From NCBI GenBank assembly GCA_021286765.1, contig JAJTBS010000001.1, forward strand, positions 434,001 to 498,000: a DNA stretch of 64,000 bases, written 5' to 3'. Made by a program: the position numbers and the translations under genes. Source of the stretch: Holophagaceae bacterium (GTDB lineage: Bacteria > Acidobacteriota > Holophagae > Holophagales > Holophagaceae). Under the pieces are notes generated by a model. The model worked only from the letters and a program-made list of their open reading frames with translations. It made no database searches and was not told the DNA's origin. Shown piece after piece: positions 18,546-30,398 of the stretch. Every line of letters starts with the position of its first letter. Positions within the stretch are counted from its first letter, which is position 1.

Positions 18546-20723
18546 ATGCGACACCTCGCGCAGGGATCCTGCGTGCTTGCCCTCGGCCTGACGGCTCAGC
18601 TGGCCTGGGCCCAGGGGCCTTCGCCCATTCCGGCCTGGGCCTCGGAGCGAATTCGCGGCTGGAGCGTCTCCCGCTACGATGCGGCCGGCAATCAGCAGTG
18701 GACCGGAAAGAAATGGGACCAGGCCACCTGGGGGGATCAGCTCGCCGAGGCCCGCCACCGGTTGCGGAGCGCGCAGGATCGGCGGGCGGCCCTGTGGGCC
18801 CTGACGGCCTGGCCGGTGGACCAATGGGATGACGCCGCACTGAAGACGGGGGGAGCCGAGGCCGCGCAGTTTCTCTACCAGCGCGGCTACAAGCAGTGGG
18901 GCAAGGACCCCTTCGCCTACCTGGGCTCTCCAGATCGCCTGGAGCGGCCCTGGACCCACGGACTGGGCCTGCACCTGGACAAGGGCGCCTGGCGTTTCCA
19001 GTGGATTCCCAGCCCGGCCCTGTTCACGCAGGCGGGCCAGGCGGCGCTGCCCAAGGGCCTTGAGCAGGCTGCTCAGCCCGGTGTGCTCATCCACCTGAAG
19101 CAGCTTCGGCCTGGGCTGGAGAAGCTGGTGGCCCTGGCGGGTGGAGCGGGCGCGGCGGCCAACGGCGCACCTTCGGGTCTGGTGCCCGCCCTGGCCCAGG
19201 GCAGTCGCCTGGGTTTCGCCGTGCGGCACCTGGAGCCCTGGCTGAAACAGGCCTCGCCGGCGCTCGAACCGCTGGCGAACCGCGAGGCCTGGGTGATGCA
19301 CTACGGCACGGAGCGCGAAGGCGGCCGGAACCTGCAGGGCACCCTGGTGTTCATTCCCGGCGACCTGCCGACCCGCACCCAGCTGATGATGACGCTGCTC
19401 AAACTGAACCCTCTGAGTTCGGGGGCCCGCAGCCGCGTCGTGAAGTGGTCTGGCCCCGGTGCCACCACGGAGGTCCAGCAGCTGCGCGGCTCCGGCGGCG
19501 TCTTCCACCTCATTCAGAAAGCCGAGGGTACCTGGATCAGCGACCGCGAGGCACCCCTGCGCGCCCTGCTGTTCCCGGGAGCCGAACCCACCCTGGGCGA
19601 ACGGCGGGAGTGGGCCCGGGTGGCGCTCTCGGCCATGGCGCCGGATACGGAGCTCTCCTTCTGGGTGGCTCCTCGCATCGGCGCGGATGCCGCTTTTGAG
19701 ATCCAGGCCATCCGCCGCCGCCTCGCCAATGCCCAGCAGGGCACCTGGCCCAATCCCTTCGTGGCCAAGGCCGCGCCCCGCACAGGAGCCCTGACCGTGG
19801 CCCTGGGCGCGGGGCCCACCGAGAAGCTGGTGGAGGCGATCCTGCGCGTGGATGACGCCAGCGAATTCCGCCTGCCCCAGATGCCCGAGTTCGCCAACGG
19901 TGGCCAGGCGCTCAATCCCGCGCAGCTGAAGGCCTATCAGGAGGCCCTGGCCAGGGCCCAGGAGCGCCAGCGCCAGCGGACCTCGCTGCGCCAGGATGCT
20001 GTGGCCCTGCAGGCCTGCCTGGACCTTCGCGGTGCGGCCCTGTTCTGGAATGGCTGGGTGGGTGCTCCGGCGCTGAATCCTGCGGAGAAGGCCTCGCTGG
20101 CGGAGCTGGCCCGGCTGCGGCGCGAGGACCCGTGGCGGGCCATGCAGGCCCAGCGCGACGGCAAGATCGAGGCCTTTGGCGGTTTCGGCGAGCCGGGGAT
20201 GGTGCCCAGCCTGGCCCTGGCCCTGCCCGTGCAGGGTGTGAAAAAGGTCCAGGTGGAGAACCTGCTGAAGAAGCTCACGCCCCGGCTCTTCAAGGGCCAG
20301 AATCAGAAGCAGGCCTTCGGCAGCGCCGAGTTGCACCGCGTCATGACCGCCCAGGCCTTCCGGCCCGCCTGGACCCTCGTGGCCGACACCCTGGTGCTGG
20401 GCACGGACGAGGCTGCCGTGAAGGCTGTGGCCGCGGGCCTGCAGGGCCAGGCGCCCACGCTGGCTGACAGCGACTCGAAGGCCTGGGCCCGCATGGAGCT
20501 GGATGGCGCGCGTACCGCGAAGGAACTGGAGAACCTGCTGCTGGCCTTCCTCCGCAGCCGCACCGGCAGCGGCTGGTGGATCGGCGAAACCGCCACCGGT
20601 GATGAGGCCGCCGCGGAACTCGCCTTCAGCCTCGGCCCCTTTCTGGGCGCGGTGAAGGCCATGGGACCTGTCCGGATCGACTGGAACTGGACCCCTGGGG
20701 GTCTGGAGGGACGCTCGCGATGA
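18546..20723 (+). CDS. Large exported protein, YfaA/DUF2138-like by position
   Basis: 725 residues. The N-terminus [23 protein letters not shown] is a signal peptide, so the product is periplasmic or membrane-associated. GTG codons at 18519 and 18525 are alternative starts; GGAGGT precedes 18525. No catalytic motif is visible. The chain contains repeated beta-rich segments and an Arg/Gln-rich helix near residues 465-485. The placement directly before a DUF1175 gene and a yfaS-type macroglobulin gene matches E. coli yfaA (DUF2138). The family assignment rests more on context than on sequence. It overlaps the next gene by four bases (ATGA), so the two are translationally coupled. Confidence 0.5.
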
Positions 20724-21673
20724 AGGCCGGTCCCATCCTGGCGGCGGCTTCGGCCGCGGTCTTGGCCGCCTTCGCGGCCCTGGTCCCCGTCCGCCATGGG
20801 GTGGTGGTGGAGGCCAACCCCGCCAACCCTGTGCGCCATGTCCGGGTGGAGAGCCGCAGCCTGCTCGGTCTGAGGCGCCCGGGCTGGGGCGTGGCTTTCT
20901 CCGGGGCTCCGGCCTGGGGTGGCGCCGCCGCTGGCTTCTACTTCACCGCCGAGCATCCGGTCGTGGTGGCCGTCACCGCCTGGCCGGGGTTCCGGCAATC
21001 CCTGTCCATCGCGCCGACCGCGGCGGCCTTCCCCGCGGCTCTTGGCGAGGAAGGGGATCGCGAGGCCTTCCGAACCTGGTTCGTGGCGCTGCTGGAGCAG
21101 CAGCTGGAGGGACCCAGCCCCGCTTGGGAGCCCGCCCAGCGGGACTGCTCCGGCCTGCTGCGGTTCGCCTTCCGGGAAGCGCTGGCGAGCCACACCGCTG
21201 CCTGGCGTGAGCGCGTGGCCTTCACCATCGGCGCTCCCGGGCAGGATCCGTCGCCCGCCTTCGCCCAGGAATGGCGGGCCGGCTTCCCGACACCGGAGGG
21301 CCGCCAGCCCTTCGCCCGGGGCCTGTACCTCCGCCGCCTGGCCTGCACGCCCGTGGGGCGGGACCTGCAGCTGGCGCGGCCCGGCGATCTGATCTTCTTC
21401 GCCCGGGGCGGGGCCCACGCCCAGCCTGACCATGCCATGGCCTTCGTGCGACCCGACGTGGATGGTGCGCCCATGCTGCTCTACCACACCGGGCCCGAAG
21501 GCAGCGGCAGCCTCCGGCAGGCGGGCGAGCTGCGCCGCGTGCGCCTGGACGACCTGCTGCACCACCCCGATCCCGACTTCCGCCCCCTGCCCGAGAACCC
21601 CGCCTTCCTGGGCCTCTACCGCTGGCGTCTGCTGGCGGGCGAGGCCCCCGATGCTTTCACCCCAAGGTCCTGA
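20720..21673 (+). CDS. DUF1175-family (YfaT-like) exported protein
   Basis: 317 residues beginning with a hydrophobic segment ([19 protein letters not shown]) that acts as signal or anchor. The central part has [16 protein letters not shown], a Cys in an NlpC/P60-like context. [13 protein letters not shown] and QPDHAMAFV follow, i.e. a Cys and His arrangement like a CHAP/NlpC-type cysteine hydrolase, as in DUF1175/YfaT. Activity on peptidoglycan or peptide is inferred, not shown. The downstream macroglobulin gene starts one base after this stop. The E. coli order yfaA-yfaT-yfaS is thus kept. Confidence 0.75.
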
Positions 21674-21674
21674 C

Positions 21675-24600
21675 ATGCGCTGGTTCCGCTCCGCCCTCAC
21701 TCTGCTGCTCCCCGCGGTTCTGCTGCTGCCCACCCTGGGCACGGCGCAGAAGCGCGCGGCCGAAGGTCCCTGGCGCGAAGGCGGCTGGACCGGCGCCTTC
21801 GCCACCCTGCGGCCCACACTGCCGGGGAAGCCCGGCCAGCTGGAGGCCGCGGGTCCCATCCCCTCCGAGGCCCGCATCCGCATCTACCGCGTGGAGGACC
21901 CGGACACCTTCCTGAAGAAAGTTCTGCTGGAACGCAGCACGGCGGCGGCCGAAGGCGGGCGGGGCGTGCAGGATCCCCTCGATGTGCTGCGCGAGGCGGT
22001 GCTCTGGGGTGGCCGACGCGCCTTCGTCACCGTGCATCGCACCGCCACCCAGGTGCTGCGGGACGCGGCCAAGCAGACGGATCGCCTGACCTCGGCCAAG
22101 ACCAGCCCCGCCCGGGTGCGAGAAGGGTCGGCCCTTCCGCTGGAGGGCCAGCCTGGGATCACCTTCGTGACGGAGCTTGTGCCCAAGGTGAGTGAGGACA
22201 TCGCAGGCAGGAAGGGGCGCGAGGACGATGAGTCCGGCGATGAGGGTTTCCTCAGCCGCGTGGAGCTTCCCGCCCAGCCCGCAGGCCTGTACCTGGTCGA
22301 GGTGCTGCGCGGCACGGATGCGGCCTATGTCCCCTGGATGGTCACAGACCTAGCCCTGCTTTCGGAGCAGGATGGGGCGAAGCTGCGCGTGCAGGCCGTG
22401 GACGCCCGCGATGGGGCCGTGAAATCGGGCGCGGTCGGCCAGCTCATGGAGGGAACGAAGCTGCAGGCCCTCGCCTTCGACGCCACTGGCCGGGCCGAAG
22501 CCCCCGTGACGCCCGGGGTGCGCCGGGTGGTGCTGGCCCGCAGCGGCGCCAGCCTGGCCATCCTCGCCAGCGAGGGGCAGAGCGCGGCCTCGGTGCGCCA
22601 GCGCCTCTACGCCTTCACGGAGCGCCCACTCTACCGCCCCGGCCAGGAGGTCTTCGCCAAGGCCATTCTGCGCAGCGTGCAGGACGGCGAGAACCGCGTG
22701 GTGAATGGTGCCCAGGCCCTGGCCTTCACCGTGCTGGATCCTGAGGACACCAAGGTCACCGAGGGCCAGGCCAAGCTCCTGAACGCGGAGACCGGCACCT
22801 ATGCCGCCCAGTTCCCGCTGCCGGGCGCAGGGCGCCTGGGGCTCTACCGCATCGTCTTCCAGGGTCCTCAGGGACCGGGCCAGGCGGAGTTCAAGGTGGA
22901 GCAGTTCGTGAAGCCCGCCTTCGAGGTGAAGGTGACCACGGAGAAGACCAAGGTGGGCCTGGGCGATGCGCTGTCCTTCCACGCGAATGCCCGCTACTTC
23001 TACGGCGCCGCGGTGCGCGGCGCCAAGGCGGACTGGTTCCTCTACAAGGTGGTGCCGCCCAAATCCAAATGGATCTGGGACGACGAGGACTCGGGCCCCG
23101 CGCCGGAATTGATGGAGAGCGGCCAACTGGAGCTGGACGCCGAGGGCCAGGCCGACCTCCCCAGCTTCAAGGCCGAGAGCGATGGCCTCTGGCGCATGGT
23201 GGTGAAGGTCGCGGATGCCGCGGGCCAGCGCAACAGCGGCCAGGCCCAGGTGCGCGCCGCCGCCGGGGATCTGGTGCTGATGGTCGCCGCGGACCGGCAG
23301 GTGGCCTTGCCGGGCAAGCCCTTCCAGGTGACGGCGCGGGCCCTGGACCTGGACGGCAAGGAGGTGCCCGGCGTGGCCATCGCCCTGCGGGCCGCCCGCA
23401 TCGTGGCGCTGAAGGACAGCGCCTACTGGTGGTCGCGACCCAGCGCCTTGAAGCCCGGGGAGACCGTGGCCTCGGCCGCGGGGCCGCAGGCCATGCTGAG
23501 CATCCCCGAAGGCGGGGCCTTCCTGCTGGTGGCCGAGGCGAAGGATTCCAAGGGCCGGCCGGTGGTGGCCCAGCGGCAGATCACCGTGGCCGCGGAAGGC
23601 ACGCCGCTGCCTGCCGTGCCTGATCTGCGGGCCGCCGCCGACAAGCCCGAATACCAGCCGGGGGACACCGCCCGGATCCTCGTGCAGCTGCCCCGGCCCA
23701 AGCTGACCCTGCACTGGGCCATCGAGCACGAGGGCCTGGGCCAGCGCCAGAGCCGCGCCGTGCCGGGCACCACGGCCCTGGTGGAGATCCCCATCACTGC
23801 GGCCATGCAGCCCAACGTCTGGGCGGTGTTCGAAATCGTGGCCGAGGGCCGCCGCCAGATGGTGGAGGTTCCCATCCGCGTTCCCAAGCGGGACCGCCGC
23901 CTGTCCGTGGCCGTCACCACGGATCGGGAGCGCTACCAGCCCGGCCAACCCATGAAGGTTTCCGTGGCTGTCACGGACGCCGCGGGGAAGCCCGCCGCCG
24001 CCGACCTCAGCGTGGGCGTGGTGGACGAGGCCATCTATGCGCTCAGCCAGGAGCTGCATCCCGATCCGGTGCGCTTCTTCCATCCGACGCGCCGGCACGG
24101 TGTCCTGCGTTCGGGATCCACGGACTGGAGCTTCCACGACCTGCTGCGCCGGCAGCGCCCCGTGTGGAGTCTCAAGCAGACCAAGCGCGGCGACTTCAAG
24201 GCCGACGACGACGACAAGGTGCGCCAGAACTTCAAGGACACGGCCTCCTGGACGCCCTTCGTGGCCGCGGGCCGCGACGGCAAGGCCAGCGTGGACCTGG
24301 TGCTGCCGGACAACCTCACGGCCTGGCGCGCCACCGCGACCGCGATCACCAGCGACACCAAGGTGGGCGTCGGGCGCAGCTCCAGGCCATCATCCAAGCC
24401 CCTGCAGGTGGCGCTGACGCTGCCACGGACGCTGAGCGTGGGGGAGGAGGCCCGGGCCATCGCCCTGGTGCGCAACCTCTCCGGCCAACCCATCACCGGA
24501 AAGATCAAGCTGGAAGTCCAGAACGGCCGCTTGGCCGGCACGCCCGAGGGCACCTTCAGCCTGCAGGACCAGGGCGAGTACCGCTTCGCCCTGCCGCTGT

Positions 24601-26417
24601 TCTCGGACAAAACGGGACCCCTGACCGTCACCGCCCGCGTGGAGGGCGGCGGACTGAAGGATGCCGAGCGCCAGCGTGTCACCGTCCAGGACCAGCTGGT
24701 GCCCGCCTCCCAGTCGGGCTCGATCCTGCTGGACGGGGGCGCCCAATCCGTGACGATCCCCGCGCCCCCCGCGGCCAAGGGGGAGGCCATGCTGGTCCTC
24801 ACGCCTGTCGGGAACCTGGAACACCTGGTGGCGCCTTCGCTGCCCTACCTCATCGGCTACCCCTATGGCTGCGTGGAGCAGACCCTGTCCAGCTTCGTGC
24901 CCAACCTGCTGGTGGCGGACCTGGTGAAGCAGGGCGCCATGCCGAACCTCGACTGGAAGCAGCTCACGGACCTGGACCGCAACATCCGCGATGGCGTGTT
25001 CAAGGTCTATGGCTACCAGCAGCCCAACGGCGGCTGGGGCTGGTACGCGCCCAACGACTTCGGCATGGAGGCCAACCCCCACACCACGGGCTACGCCATC
25101 CAGAGCTTCGCCACCATGAAGCGCCTGGGCTATGCCGTGGACGAGGGCGTCTACCGGCGGGGCCGCATGGCCGCGCTGAGCCTCTTCCAGCAGGTGGCGC
25201 GTCAGGCGGATCAGGGGGGCCGGGTGGCCGGATCAAAGAGTCCCGATCCCGAAGGCGATGCCGCGTTCCTGCTCATGGCCTTGGCCCAGACCGGCGAGCC
25301 CATCGCCGGGCTCATCGACAGTTCCGCCGACAAGGTGCTGGCCGGGAAATGGGGTGGCACCCATGTCCACGCCATGGTCGCCCTCGCGGCCGCTGCGGCG
25401 AAGCATCCCAAGGCCACCGCCCTGGCCGAGCGCCTGGAGCAGAAGGCCGTGCTGAAGGGCGGCCTCGCCCGCTGGGAGGGCCGCCGGGAGACCTGGTGGA
25501 GCTACAACTCCGGCGACATCGTCCCCACGGTGATGGCGCTCAAGGCCCTCTGCCTGGCGCGGCCCCAGTCCCCGCTGATCCGCCAGGGCGAAACCTTCCT
25601 GGCCTCGGAGTATCGTGGCTACGGCTGGTATTCCACCTGGAGCACGGGCCAGATCGTGGACCTGCTGCCCTACCTGATGAAGACCCGGAAGCTGGACTTC
25701 GGCCCGCTCTCCATCCAGGCGGCGATCCAAGGTGGGCCCTCCTTCGAGTTCAAGGAGCGTCCCGAGGCCCGGCGCTGGAACGCCCGGGAGCCGCGGGCTG
25801 GCAGCTACGCCATGGCCGAGCCGAAGCCAGTGACGGTCACGGCGGGCGGGAAGGGTCTGCTGGTGTGGACCTACGCCTACCAGGTGCCCGGCAGTGCCGC
25901 GGGGGTGCCGAAGGGTGAGGCCTCCTCGGCCCTGCGTCTCTCTGTGACCCGGAACCTCTGGCGCCTGAGGACGCCGCAGCAGACCGGGAATGCACGCCAG
26001 GGTTGGGTCCGCGAGCCCTGGACCGGCACCCTGAAGGCCGGCGAGGAGGCCTGGATGCAGGTGCAGTTCCGCACGGACCGGGATGCCGACTACGTGATGC
26101 TGGAAGTGCCCATTCCCGGTGGCCTCAACCCCACGGTGAAGCTGGAAGGCTTCGTGCTCGAGGGGAAGGCCTTCATCGAGGAGGGCTCGTCGGATGTCTG
26201 GACGAAGCCCCGAGTCGAGGTCCATCCGGACAAGGTGACCTTCCTCTTCCACCGGGCCTGGAGCTGGAACACGCACACGGTGCGCATTCACCTGCGGGCC
26301 GGCATGGCGGGCAGCTACCGCCTGCGGCCCGCCAAACTGAGCCTCATGTCGAACGAGGGGCAGTGGGCCACCTGCGATGGACTCGACCTCAAGGTGCAGG
26401 ACGGAGGTGCGCGATGA
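21675..26417 (+). CDS. Bacterial alpha-2-macroglobulin, YfaS/MagD-like, with thioester motif
   Basis: 1580 residues with a cleavable signal peptide (MRWFRSALTLLLPAVLLLPTLGTAQ). Macroglobulin domains include the hallmark FTERPLYRPGQEVFAKAILR near residue 314. A bait-region candidate lies at about residues 790-850, rich in Arg and containing Asp-Asp-Asp-Asp-Lys (844-848). It is followed by WTPFVAAGRDGKASVDLVLPDNLT, the alpha-2-macroglobulin core. GYPYGCVEQTLSSF carries a thioester-forming Cys1066 and Gln1069, followed by the helical TED domain (PNGGWGWY). Such proteins are periplasmic protease traps: bait cleavage exposes the thioester, which captures the protease. No lipobox is seen. Operon partners are described in neighbouring entries; it overlaps the next gene (ATGA). 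Confidence 0.92.
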   Translation: MRWFRSALTLLLPAVLLLPTLGTAQKRAAEGPWREGGWTGAFATLRPTLPGKPGQLEAAGPIPSEARIRIYRVEDPDTFLKKVLLERSTAAAEGGRGVQDPLDVLREAVLWGGRRAFVTVHRTATQVLRDAAKQTDRLTSAKTSPARVREGSALPLEGQPGITFVTELVPKVSEDIAGRKGREDDESGDEGFLSRVELPAQPAGLYLVEVLRGTDAAYVPWMVTDLALLSEQDGAKLRVQAVDARDGAVKSGAVGQLMEGTKLQALAFDATGRAEAPVTPGVRRVVLARSGASLAILASEGQSAASVRQRLYAFTERPLYRPGQEVFAKAILRSVQDGENRVVNGAQALAFTVLDPEDTKVTEGQAKLLNAETGTYAAQFPLPGAGRLGLYRIVFQGPQGPGQAEFKVEQFVKPAFEVKVTTEKTKVGLGDALSFHANARYFYGAAVRGAKADWFLYKVVPPKSKWIWDDEDSGPAPELMESGQLELDAEGQADLPSFKAESDGLWRMVVKVADAAGQRNSGQAQVRAAAGDLVLMVAADRQVALPGKPFQVTARALDLDGKEVPGVAIALRAARIVALKDSAYWWSRPSALKPGETVASAAGPQAMLSIPEGGAFLLVAEAKDSKGRPVVAQRQITVAAEGTPLPAVPDLRAAADKPEYQPGDTARILVQLPRPKLTLHWAIEHEGLGQRQSRAVPGTTALVEIPITAAMQPNVWAVFEIVAEGRRQMVEVPIRVPKRDRRLSVAVTTDRERYQPGQPMKVSVAVTDAAGKPAAADLSVGVVDEAIYALSQELHPDPVRFFHPTRRHGVLRSGSTDWSFHDLLRRQRPVWSLKQTKRGDFKADDDDKVRQNFKDTASWTPFVAAGRDGKASVDLVLPDNLTAWRATATAITSDTKVGVGRSSRPSSKPLQVALTLPRTLSVGEEARAIALVRNLSGQPITGKIKLEVQNGRLAGTPEGTFSLQDQGEYRFALPLFSDKTGPLTVTARVEGGGLKDAERQRVTVQDQLVPASQSGSILLDGGAQSVTIPAPPAAKGEAMLVLTPVGNLEHLVAPSLPYLIGYPYGCVEQTLSSFVPNLLVADLVKQGAMPNLDWKQLTDLDRNIRDGVFKVYGYQQPNGGWGWYAPNDFGMEANPHTTGYAIQSFATMKRLGYAVDEGVYRRGRMAALSLFQQVARQADQGGRVAGSKSPDPEGDAAFLLMALAQTGEPIAGLIDSSADKVLAGKWGGTHVHAMVALAAAAAKHPKATALAERLEQKAVLKGGLARWEGRRETWWSYNSGDIVPTVMALKALCLARPQSPLIRQGETFLASEYRGYGWYSTWSTGQIVDLLPYLMKTRKLDFGPLSIQAAIQGGPSFEFKERPEARRWNAREPRAGSYAMAEPKPVTVTAGGKGLLVWTYAYQVPGSAAGVPKGEASSALRLSVTRNLWRLRTPQQTGNARQGWVREPWTGTLKAGEEAWMQVQFRTDRDADYVMLEVPIPGGLNPTVKLEGFVLEGKAFIEEGSSDVWTKPRVEVHPDKVTFLFHRAWSWNTHTVRIHLRAGMAGSYRLRPAKLSLMSNEGQWATCDGLDLKVQDGGAR

Positions 26418-27277
26418 GGCCGCTGGTGGTGTCTCTCCTGCTGCTGGTCACCCCGGGTCTGGTCGCTCAAAAGGCCGCCAGGCCCAAGGCCCCCCTGGCG
26501 GCCTCGTACGCTCCGGACCTCAAGCTCTGGCGCCTGGAGGTTGGGCCCGACCTCGGCGGCTGGTCCAGCGACCGCACCGTGAACCTGCGGATCAAGCTGG
26601 TGGATCCGAAGGATCCGGCTCCCCCCAAGGATGAGCCGGCGCGGCGGTACTACGACGACTACGAAGACGAGGGTGGCTACGATCCCGGCGGGGAGGACAC
26701 CCGCACCGCCGAGCAGCTGCGCCAGGCCCGCCTGGAGCGGGAGGCCGAGACTGCCCGCCAGGCCTGGCGGAGCCGCGCGCTGAAGGTGTGGTTCAACGGC
26801 GCCGCGCTCAGCTGGTCTGTCCGCGTGGGGTACACCCTGAACACCGAGCTGACTGCCCAGAACGGCGAGAACCGGCTGGAGATCCTGGAGCCGGACTCGG
26901 GCCTCCGCGTGGTCCGAAGCTGGTGGGTCTCCACCGCGCGGACGCGGCTTCGGGTGGTGTCCATCCAGGCCAACGATGAATACACCGGCGGCAGCCTCCA
27001 GGTGCTGGAACCCGATGGCGCCGTGGCCGAGGGGGGCCGCCGCACGGCCTCCGGCGGCATGCTGCGCTGGTCCGGTGAGTACACCCACGACACGCCGCCG
27101 CCCGGCACCTACACGTTGAAGTGGAGGGGGGGCTGGCGGGGTGGCAAGCCAGCCCGCATCAAGGTGGAGGCCGTGCTCGATGGCGGCACCGACCAGGAGC
27201 GCCGCTGGACCTGGGAGCGCCTGATACTGCCCGGAGCCGGGACCGTGACCCTGGGGACCTTTGATGTGGAGCCTTAG
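26414..27277 (+). CDS. YfaP/DUF2135-like exported protein
   Basis: 287 residues; signal peptide MRPLVVSLLLLVTPGLVA; GGAGG seven bases before the ATG, which overlaps the macroglobulin stop. The sequence has an acidic Tyr/Asp-rich patch (YYDDYEDEGGYDPGG) at about residues 78-92 and then an Arg/Glu helix. The C-terminal beta domain contains NGENRLEILEPD and GTYTLKWRGGWRGG, which resembles DUF2135 (YfaP). In E. coli yfaP belongs to the same cluster as yfaS. It is probably a periplasmic partner of the macroglobulin. Confidence 0.65.
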   Translation: MRPLVVSLLLLVTPGLVAQKAARPKAPLAASYAPDLKLWRLEVGPDLGGWSSDRTVNLRIKLVDPKDPAPPKDEPARRYYDDYEDEGGYDPGGEDTRTAEQLRQARLEREAETARQAWRSRALKVWFNGAALSWSVRVGYTLNTELTAQNGENRLEILEPDSGLRVVRSWWVSTARTRLRVVSIQANDEYTGGSLQVLEPDGAVAEGGRRTASGGMLRWSGEYTHDTPPPGTYTLKWRGGWRGGKPARIKVEAVLDGGTDQERRWTWERLILPGAGTVTLGTFDVEP

Positions 27278-28073
27278 GAGCTCGCTGCTGGCCCTCGTCG
27301 GCACGTTGCTGCTCTCCGCCCAGCCGGCTCCCGCTCTGCTGAAGGAGCCCGCCCTGAGACCGGGCGAAGGCTTCGCCATCACGCTCGGGGATGGAGAGGT
27401 GCGGAGCTACGGGGAGGTGAAAAAGGAGGCCCCCATGGGCAGCCTGGCCAAGCTGGTGTGGCTGCGCATGGAGGGTGCCGACTGGGCCAGCCGGAACGTG
27501 CGCTTCAAGTGCACGGGAGCGGCCGGTCCCTTCGTCTGCTGGAACCGGGAGGGGCATGGCCGCATGGACCTGGGCAAGGCGCTGCAGGAGAGCTGCAACC
27601 TGGCCTTCCTCTTCTGGATCGAGGATTCGCAGAAGCACTGGAAGGCCGACTACGGGGAAGCGGCGGCCCGGGTTCGGATGGAGGAGGTCTTCGCGCCCTT
27701 CCTGGGCCGCCGGTTGCCGCCTGGTGAAGGCCTGCCACCCCTGACAGCGGCCTGGGTGGGCGATGGGGATCTGCTGCGCACCAGCCCGGAGGGATTCCTG
27801 CGCTGGCTCATGGAGCCAGAGCAAGCCGAGGTGGTGAGCTTCGGGAAGCGGTTCCTGGCAGGCACCTGGGTGGAGTTTCAGGCCCTGTTTGGCAAGGAGG
27901 ACTGGTGGTTCAAGACCGGCACCGCCCCCGTGCCCGGAGAGCCCGCGGCCACCAGCGCCTGGGTGGCGGGCGGGCACGGATCGGCCCTGGTGGTGCTGCA
28001 CCTGCCTCGCGGGCGGGGCAAGGCGGAAGGATTGACCCGCATCCGCGAGATCCTGGGGCTGAAGGCCAAATGA
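27264..28073 (+). CDS. Penicillin-binding-type transpeptidase-fold protein
   Basis: 269 residues starting at ATG 27264, overlapping the previous gene by 14 bases. The signal peptide is LRSSLLALVGTLLLSAQPAPA. Three serine-acyltransferase motifs are present in order: S60-L-A-K63 (GSLAKLVWLRM), S110-C-N112 (ALQESCNLAFLF) and K217-T-G219 (WWFKTGTAP). This is the spacing of a compact penicillin-binding/class-D beta-lactamase fold. It could act on peptidoglycan peptides or simply bind them. Part of E. coli YfaQ (DUF2300) may correspond to this domain, but I cannot confirm that. The next gene overlaps by four bases. Confidence 0.75.
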   Translation: MWSLRSSLLALVGTLLLSAQPAPALLKEPALRPGEGFAITLGDGEVRSYGEVKKEAPMGSLAKLVWLRMEGADWASRNVRFKCTGAAGPFVCWNREGHGRMDLGKALQESCNLAFLFWIEDSQKHWKADYGEAAARVRMEEVFAPFLGRRLPPGEGLPPLTAAWVGDGDLLRTSPEGFLRWLMEPEQAEVVSFGKRFLAGTWVEFQALFGKEDWWFKTGTAPVPGEPAATSAWVAGGHGSALVVLHLPRGRGKAEGLTRIREILGLKAK

Positions 28074-29536
28074 TCCTCCTGGTCGCGCCCGGGCCGCCCT
28101 TCACGCCGCCGACCTTCGAGGGGGATCCCGGGGCGCAGGTACCCCTCGAAGAAGCCCTCAGGGCCGCCCTGGCGGCCACAGGTGCCCAGGGTGCCTGGCC
28201 CGCGGGGCCATGGCGGGTCCATCTGCATGCCGATGCCGCCGCCTTCGAGCAGGCCACGGGCGCGCCGCCGGGACGCAGCGGCCAGTGGGTGGGCGAGGTC
28301 CTGCACCTGCGCCCCTGGGAACAGCTCAGGCGGCGCGACCTCGGCGCCATCCTGCGCCACGAGCTGACCCACCGGCGGCTGCGCCACCTCGGGTTGCGCC
28401 GCTGGGAGGAGGAGGCCCGCTGCCTCTGGGCCGAGTCCCAGCGGCGCCCGCCGAAGGCCTGGCCACCGGCGCCCATCGCCGCCTTGCAGGTTCGCCTGGA
28501 CAGGGCTCTGGCCGGTGGCACCACGCGGGAGCAGGCCTGGGCCTACCGCTGGCTCCGCGCCTGGCTGCGTCGCGAGCCCCTGCCGCCGCCGCCGGTGCGG
28601 GTGCAGGAGCCCGAAGCCTGGAGGAAGGAGGCCCTCACAGCGGCTCCCTCCGTTACCGTGGTCTGGCCCGCCGAGCGGCTGCGGGGCCCGCTCACGGTGA
28701 ACGGTCAGCGGCTGCCGCACCGCCTCGGAAGGACTTGGCGCTTCAATGGACGCGTGCGGTTCTCGGCGGAATTCCCTGTGCGCGACCTGCGGGGCCTGGT
28801 GCGGATCAGCGCCGAGGCCCGGGGCTGGCGCCTGGCCTGGACGGCGTCGAAGGCAGCCTGGATCGCGGCAGCCACCGAGGGTGAGCTGGGCACCGACGCG
28901 CCCTTCGAGGCCCGCCGTGCCTTGGCCGCCGTGCTGGGCCGTTGGTTGGAGGGCCATCCGCGACAGCATGAGGGGGGAGCGCTCTGCCCGCTCACCCACT
29001 GCGCCGTGGTGCGGGGCGCAGCCTCCACGGACACGGTGGGTGCCGTGGCGGTCTCACCGGAACTGAACCTGGACGGGGGGTGGGCCTTCTTCACCGGCTC
29101 GGCCGGTGGTCGTTCCCTCAGTCCTCGCGGGGTCTGGGGCGAGGGGCCCGGGGAGGCGGGAGCCGCCCTTGAGGTGCCCGGGGACCGCTGGGCCGCTTGG
29201 GAACGCACCCTCAGTGCGGCCCAGGTCGCGGCGCTCAAACGGGACGTGAAGCCCGGCGTCAAAGCGGGTCAGTCGGGCCTCCGACTGGGGGATTCCGGAC
29301 CCTATGCCGTGGAGGATCTGCGCCTGGCCACGGGCCGGCGCTTCGGCTGGACCCTCTGGCCCAGCAACGCCTGCGAAGGCGAGCTCCAGCCGGACGGCTC
29401 GCTGCGCCTGCTTGGCCGCGGCTGGGGCCACAATGTGGGGCTCTGCCTGGCCACGGCCCGCTGGCGGGCCGCACAGGGCGCCACGGCCGAGCAGATCCTG
29501 GCCGAGGCCTTCCCCATCTCCTGGCGGCTGCCATGA
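28070..29536 (+). CDS. SpoIID/DUF2300-like protein with an N-terminal HExxH segment
   Basis: 488 residues. The N-terminal part contains ILRHELTHRRL (His97, Glu98, His101), a possible zinc-protease-like HExxH. The C-terminal half resembles SpoIID/LytB peptidoglycan-binding or lytic proteins: EARRALAAVLGRWL, CPLTHCAVVRG, and finally LLGRGWGHNVGLCLATARW, the family GRGxGHxVG signature. The corresponding E. coli gene is probably yfaQ (DUF2300). No signal peptide follows the chosen ATG, and upstream codons in frame only shadow the preceding gene, so export is unexplained. It overlaps both neighbours by four bases. Confidence 0.6.
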   Translation: MILLVAPGPPFTPPTFEGDPGAQVPLEEALRAALAATGAQGAWPAGPWRVHLHADAAAFEQATGAPPGRSGQWVGEVLHLRPWEQLRRRDLGAILRHELTHRRLRHLGLRRWEEEARCLWAESQRRPPKAWPPAPIAALQVRLDRALAGGTTREQAWAYRWLRAWLRREPLPPPPVRVQEPEAWRKEALTAAPSVTVVWPAERLRGPLTVNGQRLPHRLGRTWRFNGRVRFSAEFPVRDLRGLVRISAEARGWRLAWTASKAAWIAAATEGELGTDAPFEARRALAAVLGRWLEGHPRQHEGGALCPLTHCAVVRGAASTDTVGAVAVSPELNLDGGWAFFTGSAGGRSLSPRGVWGEGPGEAGAALEVPGDRWAAWERTLSAAQVAALKRDVKPGVKAGQSGLRLGDSGPYAVEDLRLATGRRFGWTLWPSNACEGELQPDGSLRLLGRGWGHNVGLCLATARWRAAQGATAEQILAEAFPISWRLP

Positions 29537-29778
29537 CCTGGTGGGTGTACCTGCTCCGCTGCGGAGACGGCTCGTTGTACTGCGGCATCGCCCTAGATGT
29601 GACGGCTCGACTGGAGCAGCACCGGGCGGGGACAGGTGCCAAGTACACGCGGGGCCGCGGACCGCTGGAGCTGGTCTACCGCGAGGCCTGCAGCTCGCGA
29701 GCGGAGGCCCTGCGGCGCGAGCGGGCGATCAAGCGGCTGCCGCGCGCGAAGAAAGTCACGCTGGTGGGCCATCGGTGA
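29533..29778 (+). CDS. GIY-YIG nuclease-domain protein (UPF0213 type)
   Basis: 81 residues, one GIY-YIG domain: WVYLLRCGDGSLYCGIALDV (GIY and YIG equivalents), Arg in TARLEQHRAGTGAKYTRGRGP, and Glu in SRAEALRRERAIKRLPRAKK. Single-domain members such as YhbQ have weak DNA-cleaving activity in some studies, but their role is unclear. The four-base overlap with the SpoIID-like gene makes it part of the operon by position; a functional link is doubtful. Confidence 0.9.
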   Translation: MTWWVYLLRCGDGSLYCGIALDVTARLEQHRAGTGAKYTRGRGPLELVYREACSSRAEALRRERAIKRLPRAKKVTLVGHR

Positions 29779-29807
29779 CGGGGGATCGGGCCGTGGCAAG
29801 ATGTGGA

Positions 29808-30398
29808 ATGCGCCTGCTCACCGCCTCCCTGTGGCCCATCGCCCTCCTGCTTGCTTGCACCACTCCCGTGGTGGTGCGCCCGCCCGCGGATCGCGAGGCG
29901 CGGGCGGCGCTGGCCCTGGAGCAGGTGACGCGCCTGGGCCAGCCCGGGGACTGGCTGGTGATGCGCGGCTACCATGCGACCGACAACCTGGTGGCGGCGG
30001 TCACGGCGGAGCCCTTCAGCCATGTGGCCGTCCTTGATCTCGAGCGGAACCAGGTCATCGAGGCCGAGGGCAAGGGACTCCGCGCTGCGCCTTTGGCTGA
30101 GTTCATGCACCGCGCCCACCGGGTGATCCTCATGCGCCCCATGTGGGCCACCACCCCGGAGCGCCAGCGGGCCGCCGTGGAGAAGGCCCGGTCCCTGGTG
30201 GGCCGCCCCTATGATTTCACGGGCCTGATCGGGCTCAACGTGGCCGACCGCTACTACTGCAGCGAGCTGGCCGTGGCCGTCTACGCCCCCCAGGCCTCGC
30301 GGAAGGACCGGCTGCCCCTGGTCATTCCACCCGGGGACATGCACCACTGGGCCACCATCCTCTGGGACAGCGGGCCCGTGCCTGCGCCTTCCCGCTGA
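29808..30398 (+). CDS. YiiX/YebB-like NlpC/P60-type cysteine hydrolase lipoprotein
   Basis: 196 residues. LLLACTTP is a lipobox, giving a lipid-anchored Cys16, so it is a membrane lipoprotein. LGQPGDWLVMRGYH, then EPFSHVAVLDLE (catalytic-type His) and ADRYYCSELAVAVY (catalytic-type Cys) are the permuted NlpC/P60 (YiiX) arrangement. Such enzymes act on peptidoglycan peptides or acyl groups. It lies 29 bases after the GIY-YIG gene at the end of the macroglobulin operon. It ends 12 bases from convergent rpe. Confidence 0.78.
   Translation: MRLLTASLWPIALLLACTTPVVVRPPADREARAALALEQVTRLGQPGDWLVMRGYHATDNLVAAVTAEPFSHVAVLDLERNQVIEAEGKGLRAAPLAEFMHRAHRVILMRPMWATTPERQRAAVEKARSLVGRPYDFTGLIGLNVADRYYCSELAVAVYAPQASRKDRLPLVIPPGDMHHWATILWDSGPVPAPSR

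Follow-up and report, generated by a model that had tools for sequence, protein, structure and literature searches.

Does a bacterial macroglobulin, encoded as a putative protease trap, work together with the cell-wall-type enzymes whose genes lie beside it? The question is raised by a locus in the 3.15 Mb genome of a Holophagaceae bacterium (Acidobacteriota; assembly GCA_021286765.1), within a window of 64,000 nucleotides that is the whole stretch of DNA analysed (contig JAJTBS010000001.1, positions 434,001 to 498,000; G000:C4:434001-498000 in our numbering). Eight successive plus-strand open reading frames (ORFs), g1 to g8, occupy positions 18546-30398 of the window, and the first six (18546-29536) form a macroglobulin operon of the yfa/mag type. 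We show that the transpeptidase-like active site encoded by g5 is kept only where the macroglobulin, encoded by g3, is kept, and this lockstep suggests that the two work together. Throughout, "trap" denotes the macroglobulin and "triad" the SxxK, SxN and KTG motifs of g5.

The six genes and their motifs are as follows (PBP, penicillin-binding protein; HMM, hidden Markov model):

g1, 18546-20723, plus strand: 725-residue secreted protein in the yfaA position
g2, 20720-21673, plus strand: DUF1175 protein (YfaT/MagC), NlpC/P60-like; Pfam 6.9e-45
g2 Cys-His-His motifs, plus strand: RDCSGL 21140-21157, PDHAM 21425-21439, YHTG 21482-21493
g3, 21675-26417, plus strand: alpha-2-macroglobulin with signal peptide and bait region; Pfam MG2, BRD, A2M, bMG10 and TED
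g3 thioester motif CVEQ, plus strand: 24870-24881
g4, 26414-27277, plus strand: putative divergent DUF2135/YfaP-like protein, by HMM bridge
g5, 27264-28073, plus strand: transpeptidase (PBP)-like protein, probable N-terminal part of YfaQ
g5 triad, plus strand: SLAK 27441-27452, SCN 27591-27599, KTG 27912-27920
g6, 28070-29536, plus strand: HExxH gluzincin-like then SpoIID-like domain, predicted rest of YfaQ in permuted order
g6 HExxH-domain motifs, plus strand: HELTH 28358-28372, WEEEARC 28403-28423
g6 SpoIID-domain motifs, plus strand: TEGEL 28874-28888, LCPLTHC 28982-29002, GRGWGHNVG 29414-29440

The coupling is seen most directly within the genus. Nine genomes without the trap retain the equivalent site with the same flank genes; there g5 and the gene that follows the operon, g7, are kept, g1 to g4 are gone and g6 is not intact. 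Every one of these nine g5 copies has at least one broken motif, in varying combinations: SLAK has become GLAK, DLAK or ELAR, SCN has become DCD or GCD, and KTG has become KTA, QTG or ITG. The triad is intact in the operon-bearing loci of the genus (17/17). Across the family, it is intact at all 29 loci that have the trap, and at least one motif is broken at 36 of the 39 that lack it. As for the exceptions, at L035 the contig ends inside g4, at L235 the macroglobulin is on another contig, and L231, which has g6 domains, comes from a genome that is 76% complete. Once L235 is relabelled and L035 omitted, 66 of 67 loci agree.

The state of the trap has changed repeatedly. We count nine changes on a g5 tree from which the motif columns were removed (at least five on well-supported branches), eight on a g5 tree with long rows omitted and full bootstraps (at least five well supported) and six on a flank-gene tree (at least four well supported), and no discordant independent pair appears in any of the three trees. 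Since outgroup homologues have intact triads and g6 debris persists at trap-less sites, our reading is that the trap was lost repeatedly, not gained, and that catalysis went afterwards or together with it.

The SpoIID-HExxH gene tracks the trap even where the two are unlinked: four genomes from two genera have a trap locus with no g6, and all four carry a SpoIID/HExxH gene elsewhere in the genome, while g6 is absent from 15 trap-less genomes tested. The triad-less g5 copies show a ratio of nonsynonymous to synonymous substitution (dN/dS) of 0.13-0.38, mostly near 0.24, compared to 0.06-0.27 for the intact copies. Because their frame is open and under purifying selection, they are not plain pseudogenes and are probably still used for something. 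Such copies are found in the trap-less species at L192-L200 and L237-L267, often with an extended ORF, and may be reused pseudo-enzymes. In one complete genome (G138), a fused, intact transpeptidase-HExxH-SpoIID protein within the macroglobulin operon (L097) coexists with a separate triad-less g5 (L248), which adjoins the usual upstream flank gene.

What, then, are g5 and g6? Among the eight ORFs of the window, Pfam recognised g2, g3, g7 and g8 and gave no match for g1, g4, g5 and g6. Profile comparison indicates that g5 and g6 are the YfaQ (DUF2300) component, divided into two genes and permuted. For g6, alignments by hhalign were thin (two enterobacterial rows) and uninformative, and iterated HMMs via bridging taxa were used instead: YfaQ is matched by the iterated g6 profile at 5e-12, and a profile seeded with YfaQ in turn recovers the g6 orthologues of the genus at about 1e-48. 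The Escherichia coli YfaQ carries DUF2300 together with an above-threshold SpoIID match; at its C-terminus, HEYLH and then DENYIE are conserved between E. coli and Citrobacter. Most Acidobacteriota have a single fused transpeptidase-SpoIID-HExxH protein, as at L079 (PF00905 at 7e-34, SpoIID at 1.6e-21, C-terminal HExxH domain), and Spirochaetota have the three domains as three genes. SpoIID precedes HExxH at 55 loci; the reverse order occurs at 18, all in the window's family, where the L097 fusion represents another genus. The correspondence of g5 to the N-terminal part of YfaQ is less certain than that of g6, with an hhalign probability of 50% and with PF00905 at that position in the fused homologues. 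Judging by these profiles and fusions, the transpeptidase-fold and SpoIID-like proteins, which a sequence-only reading of the window had counted as additions to the yfa core, appear instead to be YfaQ split in two. As for the conservation that this reading proposed to check across Acidobacteriota, in 18 of 20 loci from other genera a profile of the same-genus g6 proteins matches a protein of the macroglobulin locus.

The two proteins possess the SxxK/SxN/KTG, SpoIID and HExxH+E motifs in conserved form. With SxxK, SxN and KTG in order, g5 is a predicted PBP-like transpeptidase; its profile matches the PBP2 structure 8yjx (E 6e-6), and the full triad occurs in 61 ORFs that match the transpeptidase profile, nearly all from outside the genus. 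The SpoIID match of g6 itself is weak (TIGR02669, 0.0026) and that of its homologues strong (1.6e-21); the catalytic Glu of SpoIID is kept in 78/78 alignable sequences and HExxH+E in 82/83. The HExxH domain of g6 was modelled at a predicted local distance difference test score (pLDDT) of 78. Foldseek alone gave weak matches, and the rows from VIA-align are mostly M1/gluzincin enzymes (best Z 9.6), a consistent picture that points to an M1-like gluzincin. We found no paper on DUF2300 in the open-access literature searched, which is no proof of novelty.

The partners on the other side of the operon link it to the mag system. The AlphaFold model of g2 (pLDDT 88) matches Pseudomonas aeruginosa MagC (7bk8) with Z 21.4 and NlpC/P60 hydrolases with Z about 10. 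Given the 7bk8 match, MagC is the yfaT counterpart, and the model presents DUF1175 as NlpC/P60-like in fold and in its Cys-His-His residues, which are invariant in 63/63 sequences. In g3, the thioester motif reads YGCVEQ, with Cys at residue 1066, and also occurs in the complete copies of the same family. CxEQ is found in 102 of 115 DUF1175-linked macroglobulin homologue ORFs; the ORFs without it are either truncated or encode the proteins of E. coli and Citrobacter. Type II macroglobulins have been defined as lacking CXEQ and lying in the mag operon, and Type I as having the thioester (PMC5764988), a division worded more carefully elsewhere as applying "in many species" (PMC3328433). By its CXEQ, g3 falls outside Type II and on the side of Type I; the adjacent pbpC (PBP1c) of Type I is not found, as the neighbours of g3 are g2, g4 and g5, and a scan of the neighbours gave no class A PBP. 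Given CxEQ in 102/115 ORFs, the thioester split describes Gammaproteobacteria and not the operon type as a whole.

For g4 the evidence is indirect. No Pfam match was obtained and hhalign to DUF2135 was weak; the g4 profile reaches YfaP at 3e-4 and a Deltaproteobacterial protein (L159:10593-11333) at 2.7e-6, and the latter is recovered by the YfaP profile at 8e-86. Through this bridging protein, g4 is indirectly supported as a divergent DUF2135/YfaP-like protein. A yfaA identity for g1 found no support: none of 16 members has a Pfam match, profile search gave no match in the PDB, hhalign to DUF2138 gave a probability of 0.3% (with a thin DUF2138 alignment), and DUF2138 is absent from 11 other genomes with DUF1175-linked loci. 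Bridging matches (8e-8 and 8e-5) lead from g1 to proteins immediately upstream of DUF1175 in two Deltaproteobacterial operons (L159 and L171), one of which has a weak DUF3352 match; a weak relationship of g1 to DUF3352-like proteins at the equivalent position is thereby suggested. In the same operons, the transpeptidase gene has beside it one for a PEGA-domain Ser/Thr protein kinase (L159:12091-13662, L171:12737-14407). The yfaA-T-S-P core claimed by the sequence-only reading thus stands for T and S, stands for P only by way of the bridge, and remains unproven for A. Of the family searches it had proposed, DUF1175 was recovered directly (E 7e-45), DUF2300 through the g6 and YfaQ profiles and DUF2135 only tentatively, through the bridge; DUF2138 was not.

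Where does the conserved unit end? The run of eight mostly overlapping plus-strand genes was described correctly, with overlaps at five of seven junctions: 4 nucleotides at g1/g2, g3/g4, g5/g6 and g6/g7, and 14 at g4/g5. The g2/g3 junction is non-overlapping if g3 starts at the signal-peptide ATG (21675), and so is g7/g8. Fourteen same-genus loci that were retrieved completely keep the order g1 to g7, and two further, truncated ones keep it up to the contig end. Two further genes complete the run:

g7, 29533-29778, plus strand: GIY-YIG protein; Pfam 3.8e-17
g8, 29808-30398, plus strand: C92 permuted papain-like (YiiX/YaeF) lipoprotein; Pfam 1.3e-14

Among 31 genomes of the genus at least 90% complete, g7 is found in all and the macroglobulin in 18; because it is present with or without the trap, g7 is a resident neighbour outside the conserved unit. 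The C92 lipoprotein had been presented as an extension of the operon, a claim that fails: g8 occurs in only 3 of 15 same-genus loci with downstream room for it and is therefore an accessory neighbour, likewise outside the unit. We also considered the DUF1175 loci, from several phyla, that are followed by 9 kb or more of sequence. The macroglobulin adjoins DUF1175 in 49 of 51, a SpoIID/YfaQ domain is present in 41/51 and a HExxH domain in 44/51. A reduced form in Meiothermus (L164, L167, L169, L174) comprises DUF1175, the macroglobulin and HExxH as a separate protein, and one family member has a second macroglobulin outside the operon (G362:C123:25420-25872). A search of plasmids returned matches only from Escherichia, Citrobacter, Deinococcus and Meiothermus; in Citrobacter, a complete yfa operon whose macroglobulin lacks CxEQ lies on a mobilizable IncF plasmid (L185). 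No DUF1175 was found in the phage records searched, and matches on viral contigs, at 85-99% identity to E. coli YfaT, were taken as host DNA.

Compared with P. aeruginosa magABCDEF (PMC5764988, PMC12663445), the locus shares the macroglobulin and the adjacent MagC within one operon, but MagD lacks the CXEQ that appears here as CVEQ, and in the papers found MagE is not described as a transpeptidase, SpoIID or gluzincin protein; by gene order only, MagE is probably YfaQ. With E. coli yfaA-T-S-Q-P it shares DUF1175, the macroglobulin, YfaQ and, putatively, DUF2135, whereas DUF2138 is not recognisable in the window. The E. coli YfaQ is a single gene in the order transpeptidase-SpoIID-HExxH, with SCG and KTW replacing SxN and KTG, in contrast to the split and permuted arrangement here, and the K-12 YfaS is a pseudogene, its Citrobacter homologue (L185) being intact. 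The Type I macroglobulin YfhM, beside pbpC (PMC3328433), resembles the locus in its thioester motif and in having a wall-transpeptidase-type gene in the cluster; the window, on the other hand, has no PBP1c, no lipobox on its macroglobulin, and mag-type partners instead. The operon described here has retained features that the model Gammaproteobacteria have lost.

We consider it fairly probable that g1 to g6 are a periplasmic defence unit that joins a covalent trap to wall remodelling or repair. A foreign protease would cleave the bait region and be trapped covalently via the thioester, and the MagC and YfaQ enzymes, by a wall chemistry that we infer, would work on nearby peptidoglycan: the SpoIID part would trim glycan strands and the PBP-like serine enzyme would re-crosslink or trim stem peptides, which would mend wall damage or leave a more resistant wall. 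The gluzincin may have the wall or the trap as its substrate. SpoIID and PBP-type folds of known function act on peptidoglycan. An interaction of MagC with peptidoglycan has been reported (FEBS Lett 2021, PMID 34115884, as cited in PMC10318531), and in P. aeruginosa MagD confers protection from the peptidoglycan-targeting type VI secretion system (T6SS) effectors VgrG3 and Tae1 (PMC12663445). These reports, together with the triad kept only with the trap and the SpoIID/HExxH gene co-occurring even when unlinked, support the link between trap and wall that the sequence-only reading had drawn. Only tentatively would we go further and propose that trap and peptidoglycan transpeptidase are an obligate pair in an innate-defence unit, with catalysis selected only within the trap response, that the YfaQ (probably MagE) family is a hitherto unrecognised wall enzyme with three parts, transpeptidase, SpoIID and metallopeptidase, and that the trap-less pseudo-enzyme is reused.

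Several points weigh against a trap that works together with wall enzymes. The well-supported independent contrasts number only 4-5, and because supported pairs are so few the sign test alone stays above 0.05; the trees leave the root unfixed, and the direction of change was taken from outgroups and debris. Two other trap-less assemblies (G351, G352) hold g6 pieces, and the triad of enterobacterial YfaQ is broken. Neither transpeptidase nor SpoIID was found at the Meiothermus (Deinococcota) loci, so wall-type enzymes are not always required. In P. aeruginosa, MagE was reported to be cytoplasmic, and neither MagC nor MagE bound MagD in a stable complex (PMC5764988). DUF1175 is described as inactive in one survey (PMC10318531).

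The chief rival, which we judge unlikely, is that the Cys, Ser and metallo-hydrolases mature, cleave or load the macroglobulin, do not act on the wall, and decay at their active sites once the macroglobulin disappears. P. aeruginosa MagB and MagE alter the level and processing of MagD, the HExxH model is closest to M1 peptidases, and lockstep loss is equally compatible with the trap as the only substrate; the known substrates of SpoIID and PBP-type folds, the MagC interaction and the nature of the effectors in the MagD phenotype argue for the wall instead. It is less probable still that the lockstep is a by-product of linkage, in which deletion of the operon costs g5 its promoter, or g5 becomes dispensable on unrelated grounds, and the triad decays without functional dependence on the trap. 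Indeed g5 sits within the operon, and some copies have decayed only in part, such as L198 (K to Q only, g6 debris upstream), but the triad-less copies keep an open frame at the dN/dS given above, and g6 follows the trap though unlinked in two genera. Least probable is the role originally suggested for bacterial macroglobulins, a general function against proteases or in colonisation that has no particular tie to the wall. The conserved bait region and thioester speak for it; against it, the macroglobulin gene is consistently linked to wall-type folds, and the carriers here are mostly environmental Acidobacteriota and others.

The idea that macroglobulins cooperate with cell-wall repair dates from the noticed a2m-pbpC neighbourhood, and we know of no mechanism for the protection that the mag operon gives against wall-targeting T6SS effectors. 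For a trap coupled to wall enzymes, the present operon would be a second, different gene system with this pairing, in which triad and trap, having shifted in concert on at least five occasions, provide a natural experiment. The rule that a mag operon has no thioester fails for the sampled operons of this type outside Gammaproteobacteria, and the DUF2300 component gains a concrete and testable identity.

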